In this document: positions 113-61,464 of the stretch, in pieces
Position numbering within the stretch: position 1 is the first letter of the stretch
How the letters are laid out: every line of letters starts with the position of its first letter
From: Agelas oroides
Taxonomy: Eukaryota; Porifera; Demospongiae; Agelasida; Agelasidae
NCBI GenBank assembly: GCA_949130485.1
Contig: OX422186.1
Coordinates: 10,868,271 to 10,932,270 of the forward strand
DNA length: 64,000 nucleotides
Reading direction: 5' to 3'
Translations under genes and position numbers: made by a program
The notes under the pieces: model-generated
Databases searched by the model: none
Told to the model about the DNA's origin: nothing
Seen by the model: only the letters and a program-made list of their open reading frames with translations

Positions 113-3100
113 AATGGTGAGAAGGCCGGAAGTGAGAGAGGAAACCAGGTCCTTCCCGGCCCTCGCTGTGACAATCGTGTTGTGAGCACCTGAGACGGCT
201 GGCCCGTGGTCAGCTGTCACCATCAGACACATCTCTAGGAACTTGCAGGCATACACAGGTAATCTGGGAGACGAGAGAGCAGAGACCCGGAGTGGGAGAT
301 CACTGCCATTAACCTATGTTTGTTTGTTTTGTGTTTTTTTTTTTAATACCAAGTTCATTTCTGCATGCTGGATTCAGTGTGAGCCCCTCCCGCCAACGTG
401 CTGGATAAAAGGCCCCACACGAAAGAGCCTAGGTACAAAGCTGATTTGCAAATTGTTGTTACCTACAAGTTACAAGTTTACAGTACATTATATATAGTTT
501 ACAGCAACCACAGAATATGGTGGAAATGGGACCTGGGGTTGAGGTTAGTTCACAATGGCGTACCTTCTCTGGAACCAGAGCAAACTAAGTACTCCTCCGA
601 TTCCAATCTCTTCCTACGGGAGAAGACGAAGCTGTTCATCACAAAAAACTGGCAAAGAAGCAGTCTATATACAAGTTGCACGAACATAACTGTCCCATCA
701 AACATCACGTGTTCTCATTCTAGCAACTACATGTAGACTATACTGTACCCCAAACAATAGCCTCCCACACACTGTTCCATAAACATTTCTGAAAACAAAC
801 TCTGCCCGATCTTATACCCTGCTACGAAATGGCCTGGCTATGAGGCTCCACCCAAATGTCATCTCTAGATAAAAAAATCTGGGCACAGACTCGGGAACAA
901 GGCTGTCATGAAGGTGGGTAAAACAAGACAACAAACATCCTACAATGGAGCTCTTTAGCTTCAGTTTCACAATGGCACAATGCATATGATTACCTTGAAT
1001 ACATCTGAGATAGGCATGCCAGCGTACAGTAGCTCCTCTCCCCTCTCATCACAGATACTGGACATGAAGGAGGCTGGCTTGCGGATAAGACCAAGCTCCT
1101 GGGCCCAAGAGTAGTCCATTGGCACAGACGGAGGCTCCTTCTCGGGTTGAGGAACAACCAGCCCGGCAGCCACCAGCTGCTCATACACGTTCCTGGGAGA
1201 GAGGCAAAGTCATGTCAGAAATGCTCTAAGTTTCTAATGTAAGATGTCTGCCTACCCAATGAGGGTACCAAGGGTGTCGAAACTGTCGGGTACGTGTGCT
1301 CCAGCTTCTAAAAGAGCCTAGACAGAAGAGAGAAGAGAACAGAGTAAGGATGAAGGCTGTTACTCTTGCCACATGTGATGAAAGTACTCACTTTATTCTT
1401 TGCATCAGCTGTCTCCCTCTCAGCATTGGCACACGCCCCTGCATGTCCAAACTGCACCTCGGAGGCAAACATCTTGGCACATGTGCCAATACACCAGACA
1501 ACAATGGGTTTGAACAGCCGTCTGGACTTGAGTGCTTCACAAATGTCATATTCCTCCACGCCACCAACCTATGGTGATGATAAGAACATGCAACTCTCAA
1601 AGGAATCATGCTATTTGACTGCTATCGCAATTCCTATAGATGGTTTCCAAATGGGCGGGGCCAACCACTTCTGGAGGGCTACTACACAAACTGAGAGGTA
1701 GCAGTACAGCTGACATTTGCCTTCATAGAAGCTGCTCATTCCGTCACTAGTTGTAGCGATTGATATAACACTTTTTTGCCTGCATTTTGCACACAGCCAC
1801 CTGTTGCCCTCCACCAGTGAATACATAGTGTACTAACTTAAAGCCACAGCCTGTGAATACTATTGTGGGTCTCGCAGCTCAGGTTGTACTGCATTCATAC
1901 ATACCTCTCCAAGAACCACAATCAATTTGACGTTGGGATCATCGTGATATCGCAGTACATGATCCAAGAAAGTAGTGCCAGGATACCTGCAAACAGAAAC
2001 ACGCCGGTTTAGTTCGCTACATGCCTCAAATTTAGCCTCGTTCCCAGGCTCTTCTCACCAGCGGGGAGAGCCTGGGAACGAGGCTACCTCAAATTAGATC
2101 CTTATTCATGAGACGTGAGCAGTGTTTGTATATTCTTTGTATATCTCAGTATTCCTATCATAGTAAACCAGTGCAGGGCATGTCCTCTCTGAACAACTCT
2201 AGTTTATACAGAGTGTCAATCGTGCGAGCCAATCAGAGAGCAGAATTCAAAACTTCTGCAATGTGATTGGATGGTCAGTTTCTCGCTCATGCAACAAGTC
2301 AAGCATAAGGTGAAGTCAGTTCAGCACATGGAAACATACCACTTTCAGTTCTCAAATCAAGGGCGATTATTTTTTGATTGGTCAGAATACAGTTTTGGTC
2401 AACTGAACAACTTCACCAGAACGTGTTCTAGTTGCATACCTGTCTCCTCCGATGGCCACGCCCTCATACACACCATTGGTCGTCCTAGAGATGATGTTGT
2501 TCAGCTCATTGGACATGCCACCAGAGCGTGACACATAGGCGACACTAGCGAGGGAGAAGAAGGTGACAGTACATGTACCACTACTTTCATAGCTAGCTTC
2601 ATTCACAGGTAGCCTCGTTCCCAAGCCGTTCCCGCCTCCAGTTTTTGATCGCTTGCAGCATGCAAAAACGGGAGGCAGAAGGCCTGGGAGATTTAGTCAC
2701 ATGTGTGACGTCAGGTAGACAGAGGGTAGACAGATGGGGGGTGCCCGATTGTTGTAACTCACAAACTTTGCATTGATCAGCCTCGAGTCTACTGAACAAG
2801 CTGTATTGATGCTGTCTTTCGAACGTTACAGTCTCAAGTTCTTGGACAAGATATTACAAAGAGTACCTCGAGATTCTCCATCAGGCACCACCCTCCGTCT
2901 GTCTACCATGTATGTGACTAAATCTCCCAGGCCTTCCCCCTCCGATTTTGCATACTGTGAGTGATCAAAAACTGGACAGTGGCGAGGGCCTGGGAATGAG
3001 CCTAGTTCACAGGACTTTCCCACTTCCAGTTATTGATCACATACTGCAAGCAATTGAAAACTGGAAGCGAGGAAGGCCTAGGAATGAGGTTCTTTATAGC

Positions 3101-6100
3101 TACATGTACATCAGTTCAATATACATACCTGCATATTGATATAGCCTCGTTCCCAGGCTCCTCCCCCCAAAGCCTGGGAATATTGACATGCAAATTAGCA
3201 GGTTGCACTGACCTTCCAGGCCTGTACAACTTTGAGGTGATTATGTTGTCCATCATCCCTCCCGTGTTGCCGATCTTGAAGCAGCCAGGTTTAATGCCTC
3301 CAACCTGGTTGAGGGAAAAGTACAAAGTTGGACTACCAAAGTTACATGTAACCATTATATGCTAACAGAATATGTGGAGCCTATCACACCATCTTTATAC
3401 ATGCAACAGTAGATGTCAATATATGTATCTTTTGCTCATAAGAGGGTTGGGTCTGGGCATGAGACTTACAGTGGCAGGTCCAATGATGGCTACGCCCTTC
3501 TCTTGAGCTTTCTTGATGAGCTTCTTTGTCTTGTTCTCTGGAATGCCCTCAGCAATGATGGCAATCGCACGAAACTGTGGGACGTAGGTCAAGTGCGGGA
3601 CATGGGACAAGTGATATAGAGCATGTCAAACAAGTCACATGAGGTGGTGTACCTGGTTGAGGTTGAGTGCCTCTAGTGTTGCATCGTACGCTGATCTGAG
3701 AGAGGCAAAGTTGATTAGGACATCTGCTTCTGGGTGCTTTTTCACTGTTTCTGACATGTCCTTGTAAACTGGGAGGGAGGGAGGGAGGGAGGGAGGGAGG
3801 GAGGGAGGGAGGGAGGGAGGGAGGGAGGGAGGGAGGGAGGGAGGGAGGGAGGGAGGGAGGGAGGGAGGGAGGGAGGGAGGGAGGGAGAGAGAGAGAGAGA
3901 GAGGAAGAGAGAGAGGCGTAGTAGTGATTCTATTCAGTTCACTCGTGCAGACAAACCTGGAATCATGATCTCCTTACGACCCCAGTAGAACTTTTGCTTG
4001 TGGTTTCCACTGTGAAACAACAGTACATGTGTGTACATACATACATACATACATGCATACATACATACATACATACATACATACATACATGCATACATAC
4101 ATACATACATACATACATACATACATACATACATGCATGCATACATACATGCATACATACATACATACATACATACATACATACATACATACTGCATTAC
4201 ACACTGCTACTCATGTACACGATATCAAGATGGGTGAGGGTTGGGTGTATACGAGAGTGGAGTGTGATGCTAGAAACCTATATGGCTAGCTCACCTGAAT
4301 GGATAGACCATTGCTGCAACTGAGGGGGTGTCTCGAGAGCAGACTTGGTCATAGTCCAGCATACCCTATGTGAGATGTGACAGGTGTCTATGTTCATGAC
4401 ACATGAATCAACAATGCCTTCATCCTTCCATGTATTCCCCTTTCCTCCTTCCCCCCTCCCTCCTTACTCCTTCCTTCCTTAATAGATGTCTATTACAACT
4501 TGACATAACAATGGCTCAATTCCTTCATACTCCCCCCTCCCCTCCCTCCTCCTTAATCCTCGCTCCCCCTCCCCCTCCCCCTCCCCCTCCCCCCTCCTCA
4601 ATCCTCTCCCCTCCTCTCCCTCATACCTGCACAGCCCTGGGTTGCATCCCCCAAATAATGGCGACACTGGAGCAGGTGAGGAGCTGGGAGGGAGAGAGAT
4701 GCTGCTCTTGCTCTGGCGTCCACAGTGACACCTGCAGAAAGAATACAGACTGACTAGTGAGCAGATGATTATCACCGTGGGAGACTTGTCTGTTCTCCCC
4801 TCCTTCTTCACCTCCACCCATACACCAATCCCCTTTCTTGCTAACCTCTACATTTCTGGACAGTCTTGGTGATTCAGACCCAATTTCCTCAGCTGCCGGT
4901 AGATCTGTTAGCGAGCTAGATGAGGAGGCTCCAGAGAGGGGAGGAGGGTTCAGATATAGCTGTGTGTGTGTGTGTGTGTGTGTGTGTGTGTGTGTGTGTG
5001 TGTGTGTGTGTGTGTGTGTGTGTGTGTGTGTGTGTGTGTGTGTGTGTGTGTGTGTGTGTGTGTGTGTGTGTGTGTGTGTGTGTGTGTGTGTGTGTGTGTG
5101 TGTCAAAAGGGAGAGGTTTCCTACATACAATTTGAACCTCGAAATGAACATTTGAAACTTCTTTAAAAAACAGCACACAGATTTGTTTTTCAGGACCGCC
5201 AACTTCTCTGAAGTAGAAAGTAACCTCGTTCAGGTAAGTGACTCTTCCTTACGGCATGACATTGTAGGTCAGCACACACATCCCCTTACATTCTTTGCCC
5301 CCAGGAGTGTCATGGGTGGCGGCTCCGGTCTGACCATAGAGATTACTCTCTGTCCCAGTGCCATTCCAACAATAGCCGTCATGTGCATCTCGGGACCATA
5401 AACATGCATGGTAAGACCCAGCTTGGAGCCTGGAGAAGGTTAGAAAATCAACCAATCACATGTTGTTAAGCCAACAAATTTAAGCTGTCAGGAAATTATG
5501 ATGAAGTACGGTAGTCCAGCACTCCATATGAAGGAGGCATGCATAGGTTCACACATTATAAAATGTGCACAAAATGGTATGTTCAAATGTGTGTTCACTT
5601 TATGTGCAAATCATTTTCAAGTGAAGCATTTTCATCAGTGGTTTGATGACACTCATGCCTGCCTAACTGTATGTTCCTTTGATGTCTCATTCCCAGGCTG
5701 GGGTGGTTTGGGAATGAGACTATGCGACTGAAGGCTAAGTAAAGCTCTTGTCATACAATGTGCAAATCAAACAATGTTGACACTTGTGAACTGTGCACGC
5801 ACCAACTTCTCTCATGACACGCAGTCCCTCCTGGTAGTTTGGCCCTCCACGGCGCACAAAAATGGTCACATTGTGTTCCAGCAGCTTGTGCTGGTACTCT
5901 GTCAGTGCACGGACAATTCCCTGCAAAGAAGAAACTCAGCCATGTCACTTTATATCACCATGGTTTGTTGACCTCATATATTGAATGTGTGTGTATGTGT
6001 GTGAACGTGTGCGCATACATGTGTGCATGATCTGTTCAGTGATAGTAGCTTTGGTCTCCCTGTGTGGGAAGAGTCTAGCCTCGTTCCCAGGTCACTCCCA

Positions 6101-61244: not shown

Positions 61245-61300
61245 TAGTCTCGTTCCCAGACCCTCAGCAAGACTGCATTGAGGGTCTGGGAACCAGACTA
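61245..61300. mobile_element. TAGTCTCG hairpin element, 56 bp, 9-bp TSD
   Basis: TAGTCTCGTTCCCAGACCCTC ... GAGGGTCTGGGAACCAGACTA; flanks GATTCTGTG (61236-61244) and GATTCTATG (61301-61309) differ at one position. Confidence 0.88.
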
Positions 61301-61464
61301 GATTCTATGTATTACTCACTGTGTTTCCAGGCAGTGTGGTTTGTGAGTCAATGTCGGAATGTTTTAGAGCACTTTTAGGTATTTTTGTTGTAGTGAAAGT
61401 GTGCTCTGAGAAAGTGAAAGTTCTTTTATCTTGAATCGGGATCAGTTATCATGATCAGTTATCA

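Follow-up and report, generated by a model that had tools for sequence, protein, structure and literature searches.

Miniature inverted-repeat transposable elements (MITEs) of the Mutator/Foldback group, and others belonging to Mutator-like elements (MULEs), have target-site duplications (TSDs) of about 9 bp and foldback ends. AcademH transposons, according to passages in PMC10045372, carry a helicase and produce TSDs of 9 or 10 bp, as against 3 or 4 bp in AcademX; passages in PMC10799480 give their domains as DEAD and Helicase_C, and the title of the original description (Kojima 2020, Mob DNA 11:15), as printed in the reference lists of both papers, places them in animals and fungi. Kolobok transposons are described in parts of PMC9587614 as having TTAA-specific 4-bp duplications and RR...YY ends; KolobokH carries a RecQ helicase, which in one red-algal family (Kolobok-1_CCri) lies on the complementary strand. 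Here we describe a 64,000-nt stretch of the Agelas oroides genome (contig OX422186.1; hereafter the window), which contains short hairpins and longer elements bounded by TAGYCTCG...CGAGRCTA-like ends. The hairpins are very probably ultra-short non-autonomous DNA transposons, that is MITEs, moved in trans by elements of about 5.6 kb that encode zf-AD and DUF6589 domains and, convergently, a RecQ-like helicase.

The link between ends and genes is provided by an 817-bp element with TAGCCTCGTACCCAGGCC ends and a perfect 9-bp TSD, present in eight full-length, near-identical copies including the query. In a DNA search with this element its two halves were found lying apart at C2:11929731-11935339 (5609 bp) and C3:17551888-17557460 (5573 bp), the left part corresponding to positions 1-464 and the right to 463-817, at 96-99% identity. 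Both complete elements have the ends TAGCCTCG...CGAGGCTA and TSDs that are perfect at 9 bp (AGAGCACTA for C3 and GTGTGGTAC for C2). Inside each, zf-AD and DUF6589 matches occupy one strand and a RecQ zinc-binding (RecQ_Zn) match the other; the DUF6589 match of the C2 element has one in-frame TGA. The 817-bp element derives from such elements by loss of the interior and, having the same ends and 9-bp TSD with the genes gone, is a MITE by definition. The long element with similar ends and a candidate transposase gene that was looked for is represented by these two.

The lead to the source elements was the zf-AD exon (E 8.8e-11) of a 594-bp element in the window, a family tied to the complete elements by end motif, 9-bp TSD and this exon. 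Among 97 zf-AD matches in the genome, 35 fall inside scored copies of the 594-bp (27) and 817-bp (8) elements. Another zf-AD locus, L038, has a TAGCCTCGTACCCAGGCC-type left end followed by an exon matching DUF6589, by a longer DUF6589 exon in L039 and, farther on, by a RecQ-like gene on the opposite strand; no right end was found within 6.5 kb of sequence. Helicase_C and RecQ_Zn matches are present at L039/L041.

The same arrangement recurs across the genome. A RecQ_Zn match (E up to 0.05) lies downstream on the opposite strand, within 4 kb, at 23 of 83 DUF6589 loci, and at none on the same strand or upstream; random placement gave a mean of 0.06 and a maximum of 2 in 300 draws. A zf-AD match lies upstream on the same strand at 9/83 loci (random mean 0.14), on the opposite strand at none and downstream at one, and four loci have both the downstream RecQ_Zn and the upstream zf-AD. 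At MULE control loci (51 of 119 matches), the corresponding counts are 0 for RecQ_Zn, 0 for upstream zf-AD and 2 for downstream zf-AD. This co-location supports zf-AD, DUF6589 and RecQ as one unit. From their order and strand, zf-AD and DUF6589 are probably exons of one protein, the putative transposase. This protein would bind, cut and join the ends, with cuts staggered by 9 bp; acidic residues in GDNLDL, GGDQLT and DLEMEHQ (L038/L039), read by eye, are candidates. The RecQ-like helicase may open strongly paired ends or help in repair, and relatives of the DUF6589 protein would serve all end subtypes in the window. Three further DUF6589 matches of equal score (C2:19766780, C17:3662260 and C18:6756821) lie in 1913-aa open frames with no adjoining zf-AD or RecQ_Zn, and perhaps represent a different kind of DUF6589 element. 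A scan of viral contigs for DUF6589 returned no relative, and an NCBIfam search of the DUF6589 and zf-AD exons gave no match.

The duplications flanking the TAG-type ends are far more frequent than chance allows. Among 21 pairs of exact ends 25-700 bp apart in the window, the 9-bp TSD is perfect in five, has one mismatch in three and two mismatches in two; none of 634 distant end pairs, the chance control, has fewer than three mismatches at this length. In 264 kb of sampled DNA, exact-end pairs spaced at most 1500 bp number 132, and 22 of them are perfect at 9 bp where distant pairs predict 0.000, ten of the 22 sitting in one tandem array; with two tandem arrays removed, 12/103 have a perfect 9-bp TSD, and perfect matches of 6, 7, 8, 10, 11 or 12 bp are lacking. 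All nine perfect 6-bp matches in this DNA fall within tandem arrays. A looser test covered 346.8 kb with relaxed end motifs, required matching inverted repeats 25-1000 bp apart and dropped arrays. It gave at most one mismatch at 9 bp in 31 of 168 pairs (20 perfect, 16 of the 31 under 110 bp), the 31 including left end 213920 counted twice and three related loci (L002-L004) fetched for their end-pattern match; perfect matches at 7, 8, 10 and 11 bp number 0, 1, 0 and 0. Flank identity above distant-pair chance bears out the preliminary description of this DNA, which had proposed mobile elements with inverted ends, flanked by duplications and as small as 31 bp.

Throughout the 259-Mb genome, exact TAGYCTCG...CGAGRCTA pairs with a 20-40 bp gap occur at 2115 places, as against 4 for a reversed-pattern control, and the TAGYCTSG...CSAGRCTA pattern of 16-35 bp occurs at 1556 places against 4. 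Ten units of 18-33 bp were found in the sampled DNA with a somewhat looser pattern. Only those of 31 and 20 bp have a 9-bp TSD; a 33-bp unit has one with two mismatches. The smallest unit with a TSD is thus 20 bp (L016:6329-6348, one mismatch), and the smallest with a perfect one 31 bp. Units of 19 bp with TAGYCTSG...CSAGRCTA ends were not counted as elements, as few have a TSD and some genome matches are pieces of longer hairpins. Hairpin units also occur in tandem: L020:9215-9599 comprises five elements of 68-71 bp with one copy of the 9-bp duplication TACATGCAG between each, and L013:8059-8468 is a minisatellite whose unit has 19-bp TAGTCTGGGAATGAGGCTA-like ends.

The members found in the window are listed below, with strand where one is assigned; those marked new were missed in the preliminary description.

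2033..2086: 54-bp hairpin; TSD CCTCAAATT at 2024-2032 and 2087-2095, perfect at 9 bp
2610..3004: 395-bp non-autonomous element; TSD with one mismatch; new
7035..7093: 59-bp candidate; perfect 10-bp TSD GGGTGTGGTT, right end CAGGCTA; new
13428..13740: 313-bp T-type element; TSD with one mismatch at 9 bp
21994..22073: 80-bp hairpin; TSD with two mismatches
33155..33204: 50-bp hairpin; TSD with two mismatches
37615..37663: 49-bp hairpin; perfect 9-bp TSD ATCTGTTAG
38771..39364, + strand: 594-bp non-autonomous element with N-terminal zf-AD exon (stop-interrupted here); perfect 9-bp TSD
47997..48392: 396-bp T-type element; outer arms 97% complementary, no TSD seen
50843..51192: 350-bp T-type element; perfect 9-bp TSD, interrupted by the 31-bp element 51150..51180
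51150..51180: 31-bp element inside the right end of 50843..51192; perfect 9-bp TSD GGCACAAGA
53924..53958: 35-bp doubtful hairpin (53923-53957 in the preliminary description); two mismatches at 10 bp, seven at 9 bp
54201..54273: 73-bp hairpin; TSD with one mismatch; inside a larger repeat with arms 54109-54142 and 54415-54448
54578..54697: 120-bp T-type element; perfect 9-bp TSD GTGGACTAC; new
61245..61300: 56-bp hairpin; TSD with one mismatch at 9 bp
61559..62011: 453-bp T-type element; perfect 9-bp TSD GGGGAGAGC; new

All eleven copies reported previously were recovered where they had been placed. The five duplications called perfect are so at 9 bp, and the two-mismatch copies (21994-22073 and 33155-33204) have two mismatches at that length; of those given one mismatch, 13428, 54201 and 61245 hold at 9 bp, and 53923-53957, with two at 10 bp, is doubtful. 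The range of 9-10 bp proposed for the family narrows to 9 bp, other lengths being almost lacking in the sampled 347 kb. The 10-bp cases are the 7035..7093 candidate, an exception to the 9-bp rule, and an alternative reading of 37615-37663, whose TSD is 9 bp with CTC as the end and 10 bp if the element ends one base sooner. The view that interiors are unrelated and only about eight terminal bases are common was partly wrong: many C-type ends have some 17 bases in common (TAGCCTCGTTCCCAGGC), and the 594-bp element has at least 39 further scored relatives, of which 31 match over its full length.

The longer members form genuine repeat families whose ends are fixed. The 594-bp element has at least 40 genome copies including itself (40 scored, from 412 candidates), the others 91-98% identical, and 32 of the 40 cover positions 1-594. 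A 617-bp element of L012, with inverted ends of about 92 bp, likewise has at least 40 copies (40 scored, from 689 candidates), 38 of them spanning 1-617. When element flanks were joined and searched for empty sites, eight matches crossed the junction, and one is a real paralogous empty site: at L012:2032-2173, adjoining the 617-bp element, a near-duplicate of the flank is without the insert and contains a single copy of the 9-bp site, altered at one base. The other seven are the element's own or neighbouring flank, the 189870 match falling inside the nested element itself.

The end architecture of the long elements suggests how hairpins may arise. Most ends examined combine an outer motif, CCAGGCC, with an inner inverted copy of it. 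An inner copy is significant (p<=0.05) at 19 of 28 long-element ends against 1.4 expected, in a gapped test that excluded the 213920 and 50843 elements and in which the two ends of one element are not independent. The 395-bp element at 2610..3004 has an inner arm at both ends (p 0.017 and 0.000), and the ends of 13428..13740 yielded no significant arm. With this arrangement, the inner arm at one end has the same orientation as the outer arm at the opposite end, and the two form a direct repeat. Deletion, slippage/repair or template switching between the direct repeats would shrink a long element to one hairpin with both outer tips, and we propose such collapse, in one event, as the route to the hairpins. 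A 52-bp hairpin at C1:3032135, chosen by eye, matches the L038 end over 41 bases at 95%, after which the outer tip completes it. An 88-bp hairpin at L005:7533 (position 71533 of the concatenated sequence) is 79% identical over 84 bases to the end of the 617-bp element, and the 37615 hairpin is 82% identical over 38 bases to a long end, perhaps through the loop into the inner arm. These belong to a comparison of 19 short hairpins with long ends, in which two matches are trivial, the hairpin being contained in an 'end' of the set.

A number of observations weigh against derivation of the hairpins from, and their mobilization by, the DUF6589 elements. Ends and genes are seen together for the TAGCCTCGTACCCAGGCC subtype. 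What links the TTCCC and TAGTCTC subtypes to it is confined to the end motif and the 9-bp TSD, and the window hairpins likewise share no more than end motif and TSD length with the complete elements. At 60 of the 83 DUF6589 loci there is no RecQ_Zn match, and 88 of 97 zf-AD matches and 34 of 57 RecQ_Zn matches lie away from DUF6589. Nine of the 28 long ends have no significant inner arm, and an earlier ungapped test, replaced by the gapped one, was significant at fewer ends. Apart from the trivial matches, only C1:3032135, 71533 and perhaps 37615 among 17 hairpins have a match that continues past the loop into the inner arm, so that the collapse route rests on few cases. A PDB sequence search returned no solved relative of DUF6589, and an AlphaFold2 fold of one DUF6589 exon made without an alignment (mean pLDDT 38.7) was unusable and was not used.

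The known lineage taken to be nearest is AcademH. Since the original AcademH description is known from citing passages, the test of membership is a partial one, confined to two traits. Both traits are present here: a transposon-encoded helicase, as RecQ_Zn in both complete elements, and a TSD in the reported range of 9 or 10 bp, perfect at 9 bp in both complete elements and consistent with the pattern of the 168 pairs. For a third trait of the group, a DDD/E transposase of Academ type, the domain observed here is DUF6589. Set against the citing descriptions, the particulars here are a zf-AD N-terminus, DUF6589, a convergently oriented gene for the helicase, and derivatives as short as 20-60 bp. 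It is unlikely that the two-gene elements form a superfamily distinct from AcademH which reached a helicase and a 9-bp TSD independently. DUF6589 is unnamed in the available passages of the Academ co-option paper (PMC10799480) and went unmentioned in the literature searched, outside which lie most subscription journals and the AcademH description itself, and RecQ helicases are present in another transposon superfamily as well (Kolobok, in parts of PMC9587614); however, AcademH is reported with both a helicase and TSDs of 9 or 10 bp, and from animals and fungi. KolobokH resembles the present elements in having a RecQ helicase inside the transposon, whereas its TTAA-specific 4-bp duplications and RR...YY ends differ from the 9-bp TSDs and TAG...CTA ends described here; TTAA was not seen as a common target among the 9-bp duplications examined. 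The repetitive hairpin-forming elements of sponge mitochondria (PMC2800124), compared by description only, are likewise small dispersed hairpins, but they are mitochondrial and those parts of the paper give no established transposition mechanism. Nothing relevant to the smallest MITEs or to sponge Academ was found among the literature titles listed, and an exact-letter literature search with four end sequences gave no matches. That DUF6589 is the transposase of a helicase-encoding group, whose doubled inverted end motif repeatedly yields mobile hairpins of 20-60 bp, is a tentative proposal to which we give somewhat less than even weight.

The preliminary description had tentatively assigned the family to Mutator-like transposases. 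The 9-bp TSD length is compatible with MULEs, though not specific to them, and MULE-domain matches are plentiful in the genome (at least 119, with 150 of 194 candidates scored). Nevertheless, movement of the elements as Mutator-like MITEs by one of these transposases is highly improbable. The one MULE family with ends found (L025) has GGGATTCGC ends, not TAGYCT; a TSD and matching inverted ends are never combined in a TAGYCT-like pair flanking the gene at the eight MULE loci examined (L025-L027, L032-L036), L027 having one such pair with a two-mismatch duplication only. The complete TAG-end elements hold zf-AD, DUF6589 and a RecQ-like helicase, and none of the listed MULE matches falls inside either (coordinates compared by eye), which also sets them apart from MULE MITEs such as Tm1 of root-knot nematodes. 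A Mutator-like source was rejected on these grounds. It is also very unlikely, although less so, that the short hairpins are themselves immobile remnants of larger mobile or satellite units, with flanking repeats inherited or due to chance. The 73-bp hairpin at 54201 does travel inside a larger repeat (54109-54448, with 34-bp inverted arms), its top genome matches extending into its flanks as expected of a larger repeated unit, and the arrays at L020 and L013 contain hairpin units. Against this, 13 of 34 pairs of 25-60 bp (three related loci, L002-L004, among them) have a 9-bp TSD with at most one mismatch, the null mean being 0.41. The remaining top-scored matches of the 54-bp hairpin at 2033, found on many contigs at 83-92% identity, are about hairpin-sized and end near its own edges (query 30-83, overshoot at most 15 bases). 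This pattern fits spread of the hairpin itself, although recurrent collapse of similar parent elements could produce it too. Moreover, the 31-bp insert at 51150-51180 breaks the end of another element: excising it with one TSD copy restores the outer end of 50843-51192, with 22 of the last 24 bases matching the left end.

The L025 MULE family (L025:573-5273, L028-L031), its extent given by a DNA search with L025, is a recent one, with 99-100% identity among the longest matches. It has GGGATTCGC ends and TSDs of about 9-10 bp and contains an open frame that we take to be OTU-like.

MITE status for the hairpins, with the DUF6589 elements as their source, provides a concrete transposase candidate for a large hairpin set that standard repeat annotation would probably miss, and gives a probable role to a domain whose function is unassigned. 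It also raises the question of the minimal DNA for a transposase, as some 20-31 bp with a few inverted-repeat bases seem sufficient here. If the proposal of collapse is true, minimal element size is linked to end architecture. Hairpins of 20-60 bp, if still mobile, would presumably rank with the smallest known units of mobile DNA. The helicase makes the opening of short, strongly paired ends directly testable.

Elsewhere in the window, a single 995-aa open frame at 17620-20607 (- strand) has Death, NACHT and NOD2 winged-helix domains and resembles an NLR gene. Three related open frames on the - strand (40853-41758, 45253-46095 and 49548-50318) have in common the stretch VKEFFT[TS]EVLEQRRTVDNHLKAFKLSL; a Pfam search of 40853-41758, the one frame of the three tested, gave no match. 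Dense inverted repeats with a motif rich in CGATCGAT occupy 46768-47140.

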